Source: Bacteroidales bacterium (lineage in GTDB: Bacteria; Bacteroidota; Bacteroidia; Bacteroidales; P3). Taken from it: DNA of 64,000 nt. This document shows, piece by piece, positions 4,611 through 64,000 of this stretch (its first letter is position 1; each line of letters begins with the position of its first letter). The stretch lies in assembly GCA_017480185.1 (NCBI GenBank), contig JAFVBC010000019.1, positions 52,717-116,716 of the forward strand, in the 5' to 3' direction. Position numbers and translations under genes: made by a program. The notes below the pieces were generated by a model. The model ran no database searches and had not been told where the DNA came from. It worked only from the letters and a program-made list of their open reading frames with translations.

Positions 4611-4704
4611 AACATCATCGCCCTATCATCTCCCTATCATCGCCTGATCAACTCCCTATCATCTCCTACAGTTCTTCAGTCAAAGTGGGAGATGATAGGT
4701 CGAT
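4611..4704. repeat. CCTATCATCKCC dispersed inverted repeat, copy A
   Basis: Lies in the divergent DUF1599/folP intergenic region. It contains three CCCTATCAT units in one direction, then a 12-base perfect inverted pair, CCTATCATCTCC at 4655-4666 and GGAGATGATAGG at 4688-4699. The loop carries one unit (GTTCTTCAGT, 4671-4680) of the other palindrome family in this window. The stretch from about 4620 to 4670 aligns with the reverse complement of 63886-63937. The rest of 4528-4820 shows no gene. Confidence 0.75.
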
Positions 4705-4820
4705 GACAAGAAGCAAATGCGAAGAGGATGCCTACCTGCCACAAGGTAAACTTTTGTTTATCCGATGTGCAATATATAACTGTATGGCCGCGTTTCTTAC
4801 GCTAAACAAAGCAATGTGAA

Positions 4821-10386: not shown

Positions 10387-10460
10387 TCCTCCTTAGCTCA
10401 GTTGGTTAGAGCACCTGACTGTTAATCAGGGGGTCGAAGGTTCAAGTCCTTCAGGGGGAG
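10387..10460 (+). tRNA. tRNA-Asn (GTT anticodon)
   Basis: A complete cloverleaf can be drawn. The acceptor stem is TCCTCCT (10387-10393) with AGGGGGA (10453-10459), the D stem is GCTC/GAGC, and the anticodon stem CCTGA/TCAGG has GTT at 10421-10423. A TTCAAGTCC T-loop is present and the discriminator is G at 10460. CCA is not encoded. It has its own promoter upstream and a terminator downstream, so it is a single-gene transcript. Confidence 0.96.
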
Positions 10461-10463
10461 CGG

Positions 10464-10496: not shown

Positions 10497-10690
10497 GTAT
10501 CCTGCAGCGAAGAATCGCCGTAGCAATGCACCACATGAGCCAGTTGCAAGGCGCACATCTGCCGACACGAGCGTGCAACACATGCAGCCAAACCGACAAA
10601 AACCTTTACCAACAAAGCAAACTTGCCACCCAAATGCTTTGCCCCATGCAATGGGCACGACAGCATCATATAGGTATCAACTTCGGCCGT

Positions 10691-10757
10691 TATTCAGTTG
10701 TTCTTCAGTTGTTCTTCAGTCATTAACTGAAGAACAACTGAAGAACAGCCCTACTTG
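10691..10757. repeat. GTTCTTCAGTY palindrome, copy 1
   Basis: A 21-base perfect stem (10700-10720 with 10726-10746) around loop CATTA, built of two 11-base units in each arm. An extra degenerate unit precedes the left arm (TTATTCAGTT). It ends in AGCCCTACTTGATAC, similar to the ends of copy 2. It sits between tRNA-Asn and the convergent 773-residue-type gene; the rest of 10497-10760 holds no gene. Confidence 0.9.
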
Positions 10758-10760
10758 ATA

Positions 10761-13052
10761 CTACCATAATGGCTTTTTGCACAGGTTTTGCCACGGTTGT
10801 GTGTGATAGAGTTCGCGCGAGTCGCACACCAATTCGTAGTATTGTGCCGTCATTGTACGGGGATATTTAGCGCGAAGCGTCCAGATTTTACCCAACCGTG
10901 CATAGTAGCGTGCTCGGGCATCGTTGGTGCGCAGTGTGCGAAAGGCCTTATCTCGCAGTTTCTTGCAGGTGGCATTGGCGCGTTGGGCATACCGCGTGTC
11001 TTCCACATCGGTCAGCCCACTGCCGTTCCAACCGCGAGAATAGGATGTAAGCCACCAACAGTTGCCAAAGCTGTTTTCAAGACCGATGGTGTATTCCAGC
11101 ATGGCAAGACCACGGCTGTCGGCATCGGAGCCGTGATGCATGGCATGTTGCAGCGAGTCCATGCGCTGCGCGAAATGCAACTTGTAGCGAGTGCTGTCGT
11201 GGCTGGCGATTGAGAAGTCGACACAGAATGGGTCGAGCCAACAACTCAAATTTGTGAGTCGCTGGTAGGTGTCGGACAGGCGTTGAAAGTGCTTGATGGC
11301 AGCACGGTAGTTGCATTCGCGCAAATGGTGCGTACCAATGATGTCGTGCCAGTATTCGTTGTCGGTGTAGCCGTGGGCGTTGAACCAACGATCATCGTCG
11401 TTAATCGGGTGCAAAACGCGCCGATAGTAGTCTTCGAGAGTACGCGCCGACTGATCGTCGACCACACAAAAGAATGGGCAGCTATAGTCGTGGTGGTTAA
11501 ATCTATCTTCATAAATCATCCACCAAATCTTGCCATCTATATTGGTGGTGTCGTCGAGCGAAGTTAGATTTAGATAATGATAAGTACCTTCAGGGCTTTC
11601 ATAATACCCCCATAAAATTGAATCTGTGCTGGTGCGGAGGTGCTGCACCACTTGGTTGTCGGTCAGCTTTACAATACTGTTATCGGCCATGTTGGCCATT
11701 TGCAGTGCTCGCACACCACGTCCAGCCTCGGCCATTCGCCACGCCAAGCCCGTGCTGTCGGCAAGCACAATGCGGTTCATTGCACAGTAGGCATACATGT
11801 AATTACGCAAATGATAATCAAAAGACCAACGAGCCAACGACAAGTGTGCAATATGATACTTCATATTGTCGGGCAAAGCACGCCATTCACGCTTCATCTC
11901 GCGGTCAAGCCAGCGCATCTCGCCAATGGCATACGACTCAAAACTATCGTTGATGGGCTCTATCTTGGCACGAAGGTAGAAAGTGAGAATGCGTGTAGAT
12001 TTGCGAAGAAAGGTGCTGCCACTACTGTCGGTGTCAGTTTGTAACACTTGCAACGCCTGCTGTGGGCAGCCTTTATAGTCGAGCATGCAAGCAGCGGCAT
12101 AGCGCCACATGGCCTTGTTGCGCACCTGTGGGTTGCGCAATGCCTCGTTTACCACAACGAGCACCGAGTCGGTCTTTTCCATATAATCCTTATCATCCCT
12201 CCATTCAGATGCCTGGTCATAATCAAGTGCCGTCAAGAAACCTTGCAACCTGACGGCAATTTGCTCCGCATTTGGCCGCAACTGGAGCATAAGGCGCAGC
12301 TGTTTATAGACTGGAGCATTGCTGGGGATAAGGTCTTCCCACCTATTGCATCTTACACGGAGTTCATTCAGTTTTCCCAAATCTCCCTTACGTTCATAAC
12401 TCCGCATAAGGTAGTCTTCTGCCTCATCATAGAATATTGTCAGTTTCATTGCACTTTCATACCTCTGCCATAGTCGTATCACGTCATCGTCGTGTTCTGC
12501 CGCCCAAGCACACTTGATGGCAAGAAACTGACGGCGCACAGCATACTTGTCGCGTTTCTTCAACATGCCACGTACTTCCTGCCACAGGTCTTCCATAAGA
12601 CGAGTTTCGTCGGTACCCAGATGGCTATTGTAGTACCACGGTGAGCGTTGCTGGTTACGAATCGACTCATATAGTTTCGACAAGTAAAGCACCTCAATGG
12701 CAGCACTATCGTTGGTGTTCCAAAGATGATTCACAAAGGCATTTTTCTGAAACCACTCCTGCACCTTTGCCCCAGGTTCGCTATCTCGGTAAAGCGCTTC
12801 CCAATCGGCCAGCGTACCACTGTAGATGGCCTCACGTATGGCATATTTGTCTTTACAGCCTGTTTGACGGCTCCAAAGTTTGATATTTTCTTCGATGAAG
12901 TGGTTGCGCGGGTCAGACGATGTTGGAATTTCTGACGGATGAATACGATAGATGCGATAGTCGATGCTACTATAATAAAATGGGCCACAAGCAATTGTCG
13001 AGCCGCAAAACAGCAGCATGCTACCGAGAATAAAACTTTTCAATATCTTCAT
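10761..13052 (-). CDS. Unrecognised large lipoprotein-like protein
   Basis: About 763 residues starting MKILKSFILGSMLLFCGSTI; the signal sequence ends in a lipobox-like STIAC, and the mature protein would begin CGPFYY. The body is largely helical and rich in aromatic and charged residues, with repeats that resemble TPR-like packing (for example RMAEAGRGVRALQMANMAD and the region YRAAIKHFQRLSDTYQRLTN). I know no named family with confidence. The start at 13052 is chosen for the signal sequence; it overlaps the upstream lipoprotein gene by 32 bases, which suggests coupled expression. Confidence 0.75.
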   Translation of the reverse strand: MKILKSFILGSMLLFCGSTIACGPFYYSSIDYRIYRIHPSEIPTSSDPRNHFIEENIKLWSRQTGCKDKYAIREAIYSGTLADWEALYRDSEPGAKVQEWFQKNAFVNHLWNTNDSAAIEVLYLSKLYESIRNQQRSPWYYNSHLGTDETRLMEDLWQEVRGMLKKRDKYAVRRQFLAIKCAWAAEHDDDVIRLWQRYESAMKLTIFYDEAEDYLMRSYERKGDLGKLNELRVRCNRWEDLIPSNAPVYKQLRLMLQLRPNAEQIAVRLQGFLTALDYDQASEWRDDKDYMEKTDSVLVVVNEALRNPQVRNKAMWRYAAACMLDYKGCPQQALQVLQTDTDSSGSTFLRKSTRILTFYLRAKIEPINDSFESYAIGEMRWLDREMKREWRALPDNMKYHIAHLSLARWSFDYHLRNYMYAYCAMNRIVLADSTGLAWRMAEAGRGVRALQMANMADNSIVKLTDNQVVQHLRTSTDSILWGYYESPEGTYHYLNLTSLDDTTNIDGKIWWMIYEDRFNHHDYSCPFFCVVDDQSARTLEDYYRRVLHPINDDDRWFNAHGYTDNEYWHDIIGTHHLRECNYRAAIKHFQRLSDTYQRLTNLSCWLDPFCVDFSIASHDSTRYKLHFAQRMDSLQHAMHHGSDADSRGLAMLEYTIGLENSFGNCWWLTSYSRGWNGSGLTDVEDTRYAQRANATCKKLRDKAFRTLRTNDARARYYARLGKIWTLRAKYPRTMTAQYYELVCDSRELYHTQPWQNLCKKPLW

Positions 13053-15417: not shown

Positions 15418-15533
15418 GTGGTTGTGGTGGTAACGCCGCCACAGACAGATTTATTGTACAGCGCGCGTAGACAGGTTGCATAATTACCCGTTAAACCACT
15501 TTATGCAACGCCACATTGTGGCACCTTAGACGT

Positions 15534-15628
15534 ATCAAGTAGGGCATTTCTTCAGTCGTTCTTCAGTTGTTCTTCAGTCGTTGACTGAAGAACACCTGAA
15601 GAACGACTGAAGAAATGCCCTACTTGAT
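15534..15628. repeat. GTTCTTCAGTY palindrome, copy 2 (95 bases)
   Basis: Arms 15534-15579 and 15583-15628 (46 bases each) are reverse complements except for one position, with a 3-base loop GTT. The core is three GTTCTTCAGTY-type units per arm; the outer part is ATCAAGTAGGGCATTTC. It lies between the divergent LytTR and purH genes, upstream of the purH promoter. Confidence 0.95.
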
Positions 15629-15808
15629 TGCTTTCAACCCACCCCTTATTCCGCCACTGAAACGAGGATTGTTGCAACTTGTATCCAATGCTTTACAACA
15701 TCAAACATTCGCCTCCAAAGCGCAGTACGGATGGGTAGATAGTAACCATTTGCATAGCACAGCAAAACATGTTGAAAAAAAAGACTACAAAAGGCAAAAA
15801 TAAAATTG

Positions 15809-15816
15809 TACATTTG
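15809..15816 (+). promoter_or_regulatory. Predicted promoter -7 element for purH
   Basis: TACATTTG fits TAnnTTTG and would give a leader of about 136 bases before purH. No clear -33 element at the usual distance. Confidence 0.6.
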
Positions 15817-36233: not shown

Positions 36234-37090
36234 GTAGCATCTTCCCCTCCACGGGAGGGGAGGTGTTAACACTATTGGTTTCTGCTGTAACGAGGCAATG
36301 TGTAGCATCTTCCCCTCCACGGGAGGGGATTGAGGGGTGGGGCGTTGAGGAAACATACCCCTTTTTCAGACCCACCCCTACCTCAAATTCAGACCCACCA
36401 CCTACCACTCCCAGGAGGGGAGGGGTTTGATATAAGCCTCCATATTAGGGGGAGGTGTTAACACTATTAGTTTCTGCTGTAACGAGGCAATGTGTAGCGT
36501 CTTCCCCTCCACGGGAGGGGATTAAGGGGTGGGGCGTTGAGGGAACACACTCCTTTTTCAGGCACACCCCCTGCCACTATTTCAGACCCACCCCCTACCC
36601 CTCCCAGGAGGGGAGGGGTTTGATATAACCCTCCATATTAGGGGGAGGTGTTAACACTATCAGTTTCTGCGGTAATGTAGCAATGTGCAGCGTCTTCCCC
36701 TCCACGGGAGGGGATTGAGGGGGTGGGGCGTTGAGGAAACATACTCCTTTTTCAGACCCACCCCCTACCCCTCCCAGGAGGGGAGGTGTTTGAGACTGCA
36801 AAAATCTCATCCATTTTTCAGACCCACCACTGCCCCTCCCAGGAGGGGAGGTATTTGATATAACCCTCCATATTAGGGGGGAGGTGTTAACACTATCAGT
36901 TTCTGCTATAACGTGGCAGGGTGTAGCGTCTTCCCCTCCACGGGAGGGGATTGAGGGGTGGGGCGTTGAGGGAACATACTCCTTTTTCAGACCCACCCCT
37001 GCCCCTCCCAGGAGGGGAGGGGTTTGAGACTGCAAAAAATCCACCTCAATTTCAGACCCACCCCTGCCCCTCCCAGGAGGGGGAGGAGAA
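36234..37090. repeat. C/G-rich hairpin tandem array 1 (period about 192 bases)
   Basis: Four to five copies of a composite unit. Each has the hairpin CCCCTCCACGGGAGGGG, then GGGGTGGGGCGTTGAGG, a CCTTTTTCAGACCCACCCC segment, a second hairpin CCCCTCCCAGGAGGGG, a TTTGATATAACCCTCCATATTA stretch and TTAACACTATYAGTTTCTGC. The CTTCCCCTCC landmarks recur at about 36308, 36501, 36693 and 36931. The last full unit has an extra hairpin block. Open reading frames seen across the array are by-products of the repeat. The remaining sequence 37091-37237 shows no gene. Confidence 0.92.
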
Positions 37091-39093: not shown

Positions 39094-39101
39094 CAAATAT
39101 A
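39094..39101 (-). promoter_or_regulatory. Predicted promoter -7 element for ftcD
   Basis: CAAATATA, i.e. TATATTTG on the minus strand, about 29 bases before the ftcD ATG. Confidence 0.65.
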
Positions 39102-39161
39102 CAACCTTTTTGCGATGCGCAATAAAAATTACCCCACAGCAAGGAATGAGCATGTAGGTAG

Positions 39162-39252
39162 CAAGTAAGGCCGTTCTTCAGTAGTTCTTCAGTTGTTCTT
39201 CAGTGATTGACTGAAGAACAACTGAAGAACTACTGAAGAACGGCCTTACTTG
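39162..39252. repeat. GTTCTTCAGTY palindrome, copy 3 (91 bases)
   Basis: Perfect 43-base arms, 39162-39204 and 39210-39252, around loop GATTG. Each arm has an outer CAAGTAAGGCC and three GTTCTTCAGTY-type units. It lies between the divergent ftcD and the first T9SS protein gene. Confidence 0.96.
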
Positions 39253-39376
39253 AGCCATAGTTGGTGCCACCTTTTCGCCTCCACGCCGAGGGGTAGTGGT
39301 CTTGTGGAGAACAAGTCTCTATTCGGGAACCGCGCGCCCAGTGCCTACTTTTTATTCCCCTTTATCAAAAAAGATG

Positions 39377-47483: not shown

Positions 47484-48290
47484 ATGGATTGGCTTCAAGC
47501 CCTCGTGTTGGGCATACTGCAAGGGTTGACCGAATACCTGCCCGTGAGCAGCAGTGGGCATCTTGCCATCGGGGCACATCTTTTCGGACTTTCGGGCGAG
47601 GAAAGCCTCACCTTTACCGTGGCTGTGCATGTAGCCACCGTGTTGAGCACCATCGTGGTGCTATGGCACGAGATTGCATGGTTGCTGACCGACCTTTTCA
47701 AACTAAAGTGGAACGACGGCACTCGCTACACCCTCAACATCATCATTTCGATGATACCGGTGGGCATCGTGGGACTGTTTTTCAAAGACACCATCGAAGA
47801 CATCTTCGGCAGCGGACTGCTTGTGGTAGGCATCTGCCTCCTTATAACCGCTTTGCTTTTGCTCTTTGCCCACCTTGCCAAACCACGCCAACGCAGCAAC
47901 ATATCGCCCATTCATGCCTTCATAATCGGGCTGGCGCAAGCCGTGGCAGTCTTGCCAGGCCTTTCTCGCTCGGGCAGCACCATAGCCACAGGCCTGCTCT
48001 TGGGCAATAAAAAAGAGCAAATGGCGCAGTTCTCATTCCTCATGGTCATACCCCCCATACTGGGTGAGGCACTGCTCGACACAAAAAAAATGGTCAGCAT
48101 GGGCATGAGCGAAGCCATGGCAGGCCTGTCGCCAACAACACTCATCGTGGGTTTCTTGGCAGCATTCATCGTGGGGTGCGTTGCCTGTCGCTGGATGATA
48201 GGAATAGTGAAACGTGGCAAACTGGTGTGGTTCGCCGCCTATTGCGCCGTGGCCGGATTGCTCACCATCGTCCTCCCCTACGTTCTATGA
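47484..48290 (+). CDS. uppP: Undecaprenyl-diphosphate phosphatase
   Basis: Recycles the lipid carrier for cell-wall synthesis and gives bacitracin resistance. 268 residues, multi-pass. Catalytic motifs: [16 protein letters not shown] near the N-terminus and [20 protein letters not shown] in the middle. Overlaps truB by 4 bases. Confidence 0.95.
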
Positions 48291-49138
48291 CACCCGTCGA
48301 AAGGCTCGAAGCGGGAATAGTGTTGCCCGTCGATAAGCCACTGGGGTGGACATCGTTTCAATGTGTCAATAAAATCAAAGCCTCCATTCGCAACTCACTT
48401 GGGCTCAAAAAGTTCAAGATAGGCCATGCTGGCACTCTTGATCCACTGGCCAGCGGACTGCTACTGGTGTGCATCGGCAAAGCAACCAAACAGATAGCCC
48501 AGTTGCAAGACGGCGAAAAGACCTACACCGGCACATTCGTATTGGGTGCCACCACCCCCTGCTTCGACCTCGAACAAGCCATCAACCACCGCTTCCCCTA
48601 CAATCACATCACGCCACAGCTGCTCGACACCTGCCGTCGACAATTCATTGGACTCATCAACCAAGTGCCCCCCATGTTCAGTGCAGTGAAAATCAACGGC
48701 ACACGGGCATACGAATACGCCCGTGTCGACGACCCCACCGTCACCACCACTCCCAAACAAGTACAGGTAAAAAGTTTCGAGATAACACAAATTCGTCCAG
48801 GCACACCAGTTTCCATCCCCCAACAACCCACCGACATCGAGGCACCCCCCACTCACCAACAGCCCCAAAACGTCCCAACATCCGAGAAACGCAAACGCAA
48901 CCCACGCCTATACGACCACCCCGAAGGTAGCGTTCCCCCCGAACTGCCACAGGTCGACTTTGAAATCGTGTGTAGCAAAGGGACCTACATTCGCAGCCTT
49001 GCACGCGACTTTGGCGAAGCCCTTCAGTCGGGTGCCTTTTTAGCATCACTGCGTCGGCAACGCATTGGCGACCACGCGGTCGAACAAGCCATCCAACTCG
49101 ACCAAATAGAAAACTGGTTGCAACAAAACCTCATGTAG
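48287..49138 (+). CDS. truB: tRNA pseudouridine(55) synthase with a proline-rich insert
   Basis: Makes pseudouridine 55 in the T-loop of tRNAs. 283 residues. Catalytic region [19 protein letters not shown] with the essential Asp, [20 protein letters not shown], and [19 protein letters not shown]. Between FEITQI and VDFEIVC there is an unusual insert of about 45 residues rich in Pro, Gln, Thr and basic residues (residues about 172-217). Start ATG 48287 overlaps the uppP stop. The 3' neighbour queA, often next, is absent. Confidence 0.94.
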
Positions 49139-49293
49139 TGTACACCTCATTGCACACCTTAATTCATTCTGGGATTCTTTTTGCATCGCACATCCATCTA
49201 ACAGATTTCAGCCCTCAATTCTTCCACCATCGTGTGGTCGAAAAATAGACAAAACGTAGGGCACAAATACGTATCAACTAAGGCTCAACTTCG

Positions 49294-49359
49294 GCCGTTC
49301 TTCAGTCGTTCTTCAGTTGTTCTTCAGTCAATGACTGAAGAACAACTGAAGAACGGCCT
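49294..49359. repeat. GTTCTTCAGTY palindrome, copy 4
   Basis: Left arm GGCCGTTCTTCAGT plus two further units, right arm with only two units ending GAACGGCC. One 11-base unit of the left arm therefore bulges out when the ends pair. It lies behind truB; 49139-49293 shows no gene. Confidence 0.88.
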
Positions 49360-49395
49360 TACCTGCTGCCTACTTAATACCACTATGCTACCCTT

Positions 49396-49830
49396 TTTAC
49401 CCACCCCCTACCCCTCCCAGGAGGGGAGGTATTTGATGGTAACGGCCTTCCCCTCATCGGGAAGGGACTAAAGGGGTGGGGCTGCATCAACAACCTGGCA
49501 CACTCTCACACTCTGCTTTTCAACCCACCCCCTAACCCCTCCCAGGAGGGGAGGTATTTGATGGTAACGGTCTTCCCCTCCTCGGGAGGGGACTAAGGGG
49601 TGGGGCTGCATCAACAACACTGTACACTCTCACTCTCTGCTTTTCAACCCACCCCTACCCCTCCCAGGAGGGGAAGTATTTGATGGTAACTATCCTCTAC
49701 TTCTTGGGAGGAGATGTATTTGATGGTAACGGTCTTCCCCTCCTCGGGTTGGGAGGTATTTGATGGTAACGGTCTTCCCCTCCTCGGGTTGGGAGGTATT
49801 TGATGGTAACTCCCCTACCCCTCTCCAGGA
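49396..49830. repeat. C/G-rich hairpin tandem array 2
   Basis: Three copies, about 124 bases apart, of a unit with CCCACCCCCTACCCCTCCCA and GGAGGGGAGGTATTTGATGG, then CTTCCCCTCCTCGGGAGGGG and GGGGTGGGGCTGCATCAACA. They are followed by two to three copies of a 41-base unit (GGGAGGTATTTGATGGTAAC, GGTCTTCCCCTCCTCGGGTT). It shares the hairpin core CCCCTCCCAGGAGGGG with array 1, but the spacer sequences differ. Confidence 0.9.
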
Positions 49831-49884
49831 GGGAGGGTATATGAATTTGGTGATAATTCTGCCCAATACGAGAGGAAAAAGATG

Positions 49885-63779: not shown

Positions 63780-63868
63780 CAGTTTCTTCTTTTATAATAG
63801 CAATCAACGACGCTCGGATAAAAATATTGCATTCTATCACCATTTTTTTATCATCGTCCGATTTGCGC

Positions 63869-63935
63869 CCTATCATCGCCCGTTTTAGCAGGAGTTGATA
63901 GGGACTTGGTCAGGCGATGATAGGGCGATGATAGG
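63869..63935. repeat. CCTATCATCKCC dispersed inverted repeat, copy B
   Basis: CCTATCATCGCC at 63869-63880 pairs with GGCGATGATAGG at 63913-63924 or 63924-63935. The right half, read in reverse complement, aligns with copy A at 4620-4670. It is the only feature seen in 63780-63984. Confidence 0.75.
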
Positions 63936-63984
63936 ACAATAATATCTGCAGCAAACCGAGTAGGGTAAAGGAAAAGTATAGAGT

Positions 63985-64000
63985 GGGGGGGGGGGGGGGG
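63985..64000. other. Terminal G homopolymer
   Basis: Sixteen Gs to the last base. Most simply a contig end or sequencing artefact. Confidence 0.7.

Follow-up and report, generated by a model that had tools for sequence, protein, structure and literature searches.

REPs are described, in the passages of the literature drawn on here, as sequences of 20-40 bp with one GTAG/CGTC foot that sit mainly in unidirectional and convergent gaps (PMC3733652), and BIME-2 palindromes as gyrase sites (PMC6379681). The latter account, in the part used, gives Escherichia coli gyrase a symmetric motif of 130 bp (-63 to +66) in which GC content varies with a 10.75-bp period on both flanks; it describes gyrase sites as enriched downstream of highly transcribed operons. 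Plasmid R1 parC carries 11-bp repeats, and in ParR-type complexes the DNA winds into a solenoid (PMC9426499, excerpted). PINSR is a 188-bp intergenic repeat of Prevotella intermedia with 177-184 copies (PMC4755523, excerpted), and ~11-bp AT periodicity is usually taken to reflect the helical pitch that DNA has under negative supercoiling, with curvature upstream of promoters (PMC4132750, excerpted). Here, we describe type A, a family of intergenic arrays of 11-bp units in a Bacteroidales genome, mostly located between divergent genes.

The window (the whole stretch of DNA analyzed, 64,000 nucleotides) comes from a genome (G000) of 1.90 Mb in 39 contigs, 97% complete. A sequence-only reading had reported four giant palindromes built of an 11-base unit, and all four are present at the coordinates that it gave (Table 1), with the extra left-hand unit that it had described for copies 1 and 4. 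Its near-perfect arms of 43-46 bases were recovered by inverted-repeat search for copy 2 (46-nt arms, 98% complementary, gap of 3 nt) and copy 3 (43-nt arms, 100% complementary, gap of 5 nt); in copies 1 and 4, inner arms of 22 and 24 nt are perfect and lie within longer arms of 86% and 77%, respectively. The window also contains two long tandem-repeat blocks (36257-37082, periods of 193/235 bp; 49399-49844, periods of 124/40/80 bp), both built on a CCCCTCCCAGGAGGGG-type palindrome and forming a repeat family separate from the 11-bp arrays, and a run of 16 G at 63985-64000, at the contig end, which is likely a sequencing artefact.

Table 1. Arrays of 11-bp units and outward promoter-like boxes in the window
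Feature	Position	Strand	Anatomy and context
Type-A element 1	10674..10761		Core 10691-10757; 3 units left, 2 right; outer ends GTATCAA.../...TTGATAC; 3' of 10291+ and tRNA-Asn (10387-10461+), ahead of 10761-13082-; rare convergent case
Type-A element 2	15514..15648		Core 15534-15628; divergent gap, LytTR-domain gene 15058-15417- / purH 15959+
Type-A element 3	39140..39274		Core 39162-39252; perfect arms of 43 nt; divergent gap, formiminotransferase-cyclodeaminase (FTCD) gene 37368-39068- / right-hand CHU_C (type IX secretion signal) domain gene
Type-A element 4	49271..49380		Core 49294-49359; 3 units left, 2 right; codirectional gap, truB 48176-49138+ / 49906+
Type-B 11-nt-unit array (TATCATCNCCC)	4615..4706		Holds one GTTCTTCAGT; divergent gap 5' of folP (4821+)
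Type-B inverted 11-nt-unit array (CCTATCATCGC)	63849..63944		5' side of 63183-63779-, close to contig end
Outward TAnnTTTG (-7-like) box	15809..15816	+	5' of purH, ~228 bp off element 2 centre
Outward TAnnTTTG (-7-like) box	39094..39101	-	5' of 37368-39068-, ~106 bp off element 3 centre

Searched with up to two mismatches, G000 gave 268 strand matches to GTTCTTCAGTNGTTCTTCAGT (0 for the reversed control) and 86 forward and 85 reverse matches to the palindromic centre pattern (reversed control, 0), which we read as a family of about 86 type-A elements. The genome-wide search with the unit had been proposed as a check on the four copies, and the many further copies that it returned bear out the expectation of a dispersed family. 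At least 21 of the 78 contig ends of G000, among the matches listed, lie within 120 bp of a type-A core, and type-A repeats also break metagenome assemblies.

The anatomy of type A was profiled on 56 elements with at least 160 bp on each side. The full element is ~135 bp long, larger than first reported, and consists of 11-bp units mirrored about a 5-bp centre (consensus CATTG) that is flanked by GTTCTTCAGT units, each plus one variable base. Read outward, the outer 11-mers are GCCTTACTTGA (30 of 112 arms), GCCGAAGTTGA (25/112), and GCCCTACTTGA (21/112), with weaker 11-mers beyond. Conservation, palindromy, and the 11-bp period extend to about ±67 bp, and the mirror arms have no fixed end, conservation declining outward in 11-bp steps. 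Flank self-match was 0.322 at lag 11, 0.244-0.304 at lags 1-10 and 12-21, and 0.285 at lag 22.

Gene neighborhoods were assigned with a codon-based gene caller made for the analysis. The contexts had been called mixed, which is true of the four window copies and not of the genome, where 37 of 53 classified elements are divergent and 16 lie outside divergent gaps (n = 56: divergent, 37; codirectional, 13; convergent, 3; unclassified, 3). Divergent gaps make up 17% or 27% of the intergenic bases of G000 by two estimates, against which the bias has binomial p = 3e-17 or 1e-10, respectively. It recurs in G023 (divergent, 19; codirectional, 6; unclassified, 2; 19/25 divergent, p = 5e-7 against the G000 share of 27%) and in RGIG6226 (divergent, 24; codirectional, 4; unclassified, 4; 24/28 divergent, p = 8e-5 with the 50% share within its own loci rich in elements as the reference). 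Across 426 kb of contiguous contigs, mostly chosen for carrying elements, which should not bias a comparison of gap types, type A occupied 17 of 29 divergent gaps of at least 150 bp versus 9 of 56 others (p = 1e-4; codirectional, 7/43; convergent, 2/13), and any 11-bp array occupied 21 of 29 versus 11 of 56 (codirectional, 9/43; convergent, 2/13).

A gene start faces 89 of 109 type-A sides. Between element and gene, 58 of these 89 sides carry an outward TAnnTTTG, which we take to be the Bacteroides -7 box, and 10 carry an inward one; on gene-end sides the outward box was found in 1 of 20. The boxes are sequence matches and promoter-like, not mapped starts, and over the whole window TAnnTTTG is no commoner than chance (45 seen versus 41 expected). 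Out of 88 5' neighbours listed, 40 were scanned; 34 had a family match and 6 had none, and the matched genes are mostly housekeeping (tRNA modification, replication, cell wall, glycolysis, translation, and recombination). A specific regulon, for which purH, FTCD, and folP had pointed to one-carbon genes, is not borne out by these 40 further neighbours, which are functionally mixed.

The promoter-like boxes are helically phased to the elements. Pooled box-to-centre distances have a period of 11.0 (147 boxes, 140 elements, R = 0.305, p < 5e-5); the first test in G000 gave R = 0.366 (n = 60, p = 0.008 over periods 9.5-13), and G023 gave R = 0.45 (n = 35, p = 0.001). Placed in common coordinates, the boxes of G000 (R = 0.321, p = 0.005, phase 4.76), G023 plus RUG061 (R = 0.313, p = 0.011, phase 4.91), and RGIG6226 (R = 0.273, p = 0.089, phase 5.29) share one phase in three species, significant in two and weak in RGIG6226. 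By themselves, the 8-kb loci of RUG061 showed no significant box phasing (p = 0.295), nor did other 11-bp array families (40 boxes, 28 arrays, R = 0.10, p = 0.66). The control motifs AT..TTTG (R = 0.018, n = 22) and TATA (R = 0.025, n = 175) were unphased, while TTTT, AAAA, and TTTG in the same type-A flanks were also phased, but at another phase. Among nine variant control motifs, one (TA..GTTT, n = 5) reached p = 0.02; the others are weak tests, with 6-26 matches each. Leftover array sequence is an unlikely source of the phasing, because past 110 bp the self-match at lag 11 (0.282) is not raised over that at lags 7-10 and 12-15 (0.262-0.295), although a weak GC phase persists out to 155 bp.

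Type A belongs to a wider class. All window arrays scoring at least 0.56 (lags 5-25) have lag 11, two of them with a different unit, and so do 26 of 30 arrays in 363 kb of G000, of which the stretches besides the window were picked mostly away from known type-A copies. Among sampled relatives in the genus, lag 11 was found in 8 of 13 arrays in G049, 7 of 15 in G001, 8 of 9 in G016 (partly drawn from a G000-like contig), 1 of 5 in G027, 1 of 2 in G060, and 2 of 2 in G072, built of other units, e.g., ACCGTACATGC, GTTCTTCGGTT, and GGGGTTAAGGA. Lag-11 arrays were absent from the single stretch taken from each of nine other families in the order and numbered one in the usable stretches of seven other genera of the family, which also held arrays of other periods. 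One-sided arrays followed no consistent orientation rule. Two further G000 families were counted over 590 kb, B with 17 arrays and C with 5, and family B has no clear divergent bias (codirectional, 9; divergent, 4; convergent, 2; unclassified, 2). An 11-bp palindrome, CTGATNATCAG, lies near one-sided 11-bp arrays in G000 and G001 (L209:16327, L325:8911, L232:12107, and, in G001, L224:16875). Intergenic arrays of period 22, 23, 7, 8, and 10 occur in the stretches sampled from G059 (L330) and from other genera of the family (L331, L332, and L334), possibly a related behaviour at another pitch.

With moderate confidence, we regard type A as a DNA-level architectural or regulatory array placed 5' of promoters and, mostly, midway between divergent ones. 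Each 11-bp unit would span about one helical turn of underwound DNA, and the array, mirrored around its 5-bp centre, would offer the same groove face once per turn. The putative binder is either a protein that recognises the sequence itself, of the iteron-binding or nucleoid kind, or a topoisomerase that wraps DNA. Once bound, the protein may bend or wrap the DNA into a complex with which the promoters on either side would be in helical phase, and such a complex could insulate or tune both flanking genes from a single platform. The family would have been copied round the genome, by a presumed copying route, and species of the genus use different unit sequences. Type A looks more like control DNA than like ordinary jumping palindromes, because it sits mostly between divergent genes and in step with likely start signals. 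A DNA-level platform accounts for the data better than does a hairpin in a transcript or a REP moved by a transposase, and agrees with the structural DNA signal that was one of the options offered by the sequence-only reading. More tentatively, and with doubt outweighing belief, the genus may share an architecture in which homogenised 11-bp iteron arrays, mirrored between divergent promoters and phased to both, are read by a fast-evolving protein, the unit being replaced from species to species while the pitch stays fixed.

Were the phasing functional, a repeated sequence in these genomes would directly encode their helical pitch and the face occupied by promoters, whether ~11-bp periodicity in bacterial DNA has any purpose could be tested at single sites, and a class of interspersed repeat would be added between divergent promoters, where REPs are mostly absent.

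How type A spread bears on a rival that we consider unlikely, namely, a selfish REP- or MITE-like palindrome that survives or inserts best in the negatively supercoiled, untranscribed DNA of divergent promoters. It is favored by about 86 near-identical dispersed copies (at least 70 with the exact core, among the matches listed) and by a patchy distribution; type A occurred in 4 of the 59 genomes searched within the genus (among them G000, and also G016, whose copies are on a G000-like contig), in 3 of 61 genomes of a family sample, all in 1 genus of 12, and in 1 of 119 genomes of an order sample, G000 itself. Locations also turn over between species. An orthologous neighbour is common to G000 (56 elements) and G023 for 3 of 27 G023 elements, against roughly three gene matches estimated by chance, and location is not specially conserved between the two genomes. 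Some kind of spread is still required, because about 86 copies are near identical and their locations in G000 and G023 agree no better than this rough chance estimate. In the sole near-identical stretch (G016:C3 against G000:C13, 99.96% identical over 96 kb; 16 mismatches in 91,399 bases), all five type-A elements are in place in both and there is no empty site, in a pair too close to reveal movement. Three of the 16 mismatches lie within 20 bases of one type-A core (C13:90015-90034), either a local change or an assembly error at the palindrome. The aligned part, G016:C3:1-95825 (L317, L232, L197-L199, L319, L320, L233, and L318), points to misbinning, to a chimera, or to the transfer of a large segment; genes elsewhere in G016 are those of another species (protein identity of 87% for purH and of 64% for folP, the latter on this contig).

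Neither a terminal signature nor a target duplication was identified for type A, and helical phasing to promoters and independent assortment of the outer arms are not expected of selfish insertion or count against it. Nor was the transposase expected of a REP found. Y1_Tnp (PF01797), the family searched, had no match in G000, which is not absolute because the genome is 97% complete, and the control was positive in 5 of 14 named genomes. Elsewhere in the genus it was absent from G008 and G016, present once in G023, and present in G049, G001, G060, and G072 (5/8 genomes), so that it occurs in noncarriers as well as in one carrier, G023, where the nearest element is ~2.5 kb off in an 8-kb stretch around the gene. 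The proposal of a REP or MITE moved by a TnpA-REP-like transposase is consequently not supported, there being no Y1_Tnp in G000 or G008 and a divergent placement that is not REP-like; mobilisation by TnpA-REP was rejected on the first ground, the lack of Y1_Tnp in G000.

Other species carry intergenic, nonpalindromic arrays of other units, some 5' of the same genes, which counts against a selfish palindrome. Type A is upstream of purH and of FTCD in both G000 and G023, each time with different outer units, and folP has type B upstream in G000 and type A in G023 and G008. Lag-11 arrays stood 5' of FTCD orthologues at 10 of 26 loci, with largely different units, of purH at 4 of 28, and of folP at 7 of 28, compared with 3 of 26, 0 of 28, and 0 of 28 on the 3' side; with the threshold unchanged, arrays having other lags numbered 6, 2, and 7, respectively. 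This recurrence need not exceed the divergent-gap preference, because arrays are so common in divergent gaps. What is conserved is the type of site; for individual sites and for units, conservation is not clear.

Records carrying the type-A unit, among the matches listed, are mostly uncultured Bacteroidales MAGs (RUG and RGIG), and the stated sources of unit-bearing contigs, again among the matches listed, are sheep rectum, sheep rumen, and roe deer rumen; from these, we infer a gut habitat for the window bacterium. One contig, perhaps misbinned, of a MAG labelled Burkholderiales begins with six type-A-like units (L069:1-74), and a lone type-A-like match of two units in Streptomyces (L088:5394) is perhaps due to chance. 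Viral contigs gave 0 exact type-A matches.

The dimensions of type A also match those of a strong DNA gyrase site, at which mirrored, 11-bp-phased arms would wrap two GyrA C-terminal domains in a BIME-like genome-organising site. We think this distinctly improbable, even with dyad symmetry to about ±67 bp, a period of 11 bp, and maxima of GC content that fall near 4-5 mod 11. The symmetric footprint of ~130 bp with ~10.75-bp period is found in type A, in a comparison with the published description, in part, only. Against it, E. coli sites are enriched 3' of operons, not between divergent promoters, in the part of PMC6379681 drawn on; gyrase reads bendability, which leaves the identity of the unit over 86 copies unexplained; and neither promoter phasing nor one-sided arrays follow from it.

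Long inverted repeats of very low folding energy (z-scores of -10 to -20 versus shuffles for the four copies as first delimited, folded as DNA), mostly between divergent genes, could instead form a cruciform or supercoil buffer, the palindrome extruding as divergent transcription underwinds the gap. The arms make this very improbable. They are unequal in 40 of 56 elements (left/right units, 3/2 in 24, 2/3 in 15, 3/3 in 12, 2/2 in 4, and 1/3 in 1); in 39 of these the inequality follows from an inner-unit total of five. The suggestion that unit number changes in a paired way was tested on these counts and did not survive. Outer arms match no better within an element (21.3) than between different elements (21.8; permutation, p = 0.945). 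Whole-hairpin pairing is therefore not what is conserved, given that arm lengths differ and outer arms match no better than between elements. The innermost variable bases agree between arms (0.96 versus 0.68 expected, and 0.64 versus 0.43 expected), and hence the inner core keeps some palindrome-specific history. The sampled arrays of G049 (palindromy, 0.49 versus 0.47 in shuffled controls), G001 (0.43/0.45), and G016 (0.47/0.44) are not palindromic beyond controls, while G000 arrays of all families score 0.60/0.47. The palindrome or hairpin as essential feature was rejected on the outer-arm test and on the sampled arrays of these three genomes. An RNA-level terminator, attenuator, or processing hairpin, which would be very stable if transcribed, is scarcely credible for elements that lie upstream of outward promoter-like boxes, are convergent in 3 of 53 cases, have outer arms free of pairing constraint, and gave no Rfam match in the window at the gathering threshold except a tRNA; the earlier view that a pure terminator role is insufficient stands.

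Compared with known systems, the DNA-level array proposed here resembles the RAYT-mobilised REP/BIME/REPIN sequences in being dispersed, intergenic, palindromic, and present in tens to hundreds of copies (PMC6379681 and PMC3733652, as excerpted). It departs from the gap preference of REPs, with 3 of 53 elements convergent, 13 codirectional, and 37 divergent, and from their 20-40-bp stem-loop with a single foot, being ~135 bp long with 11-bp units in both arms; by eye, GTAG in type A falls within repeated outer units rather than forming one foot. The gyrase motif of E. coli is likewise dyad symmetric, about 130 bp long, and near 11 bp in flank period, but is, in the description compared, a degenerate composition signal from cleavage mapping, whereas type A consists of fixed repeated units 5' of promoters. 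The iterons of R1 parC, bound by ParR, are 11-bp direct repeats beside a promoter, and direct 11-bp units occur within each type-A arm; parC, as far as described in the part of PMC9426499 used, is one plasmid locus of direct repeats, whereas type A forms mirrored arrays at dozens of chromosomal sites. Both systems show the same physical idea as the proposed platform, the one in a symmetric motif with 10.75-bp periodic flanks over 130 bp and the other in 11-bp repeats with DNA wound into a solenoid. PINSR is also an intergenic, lineage-restricted repeat of Bacteroidota described as distinct from MITEs, and differs in that no terminal inverted repeats are reported and 11-bp units are not mentioned in the description compared (PMC4755523). 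Genome-wide AT periodicity of ~11 bp in bacterial DNA shares the period of type A but is statistical in nature and lies mostly in coding sequence in the cyanobacteria covered by PMC4132750, as excerpted, whereas type A consists of discrete homogeneous arrays. Among the papers listed from the open-licence PMC literature, we found none with a comparable 11-bp array. We count type A as a variant of the dispersed intergenic repeat, with a real chance of being a kind of its own.
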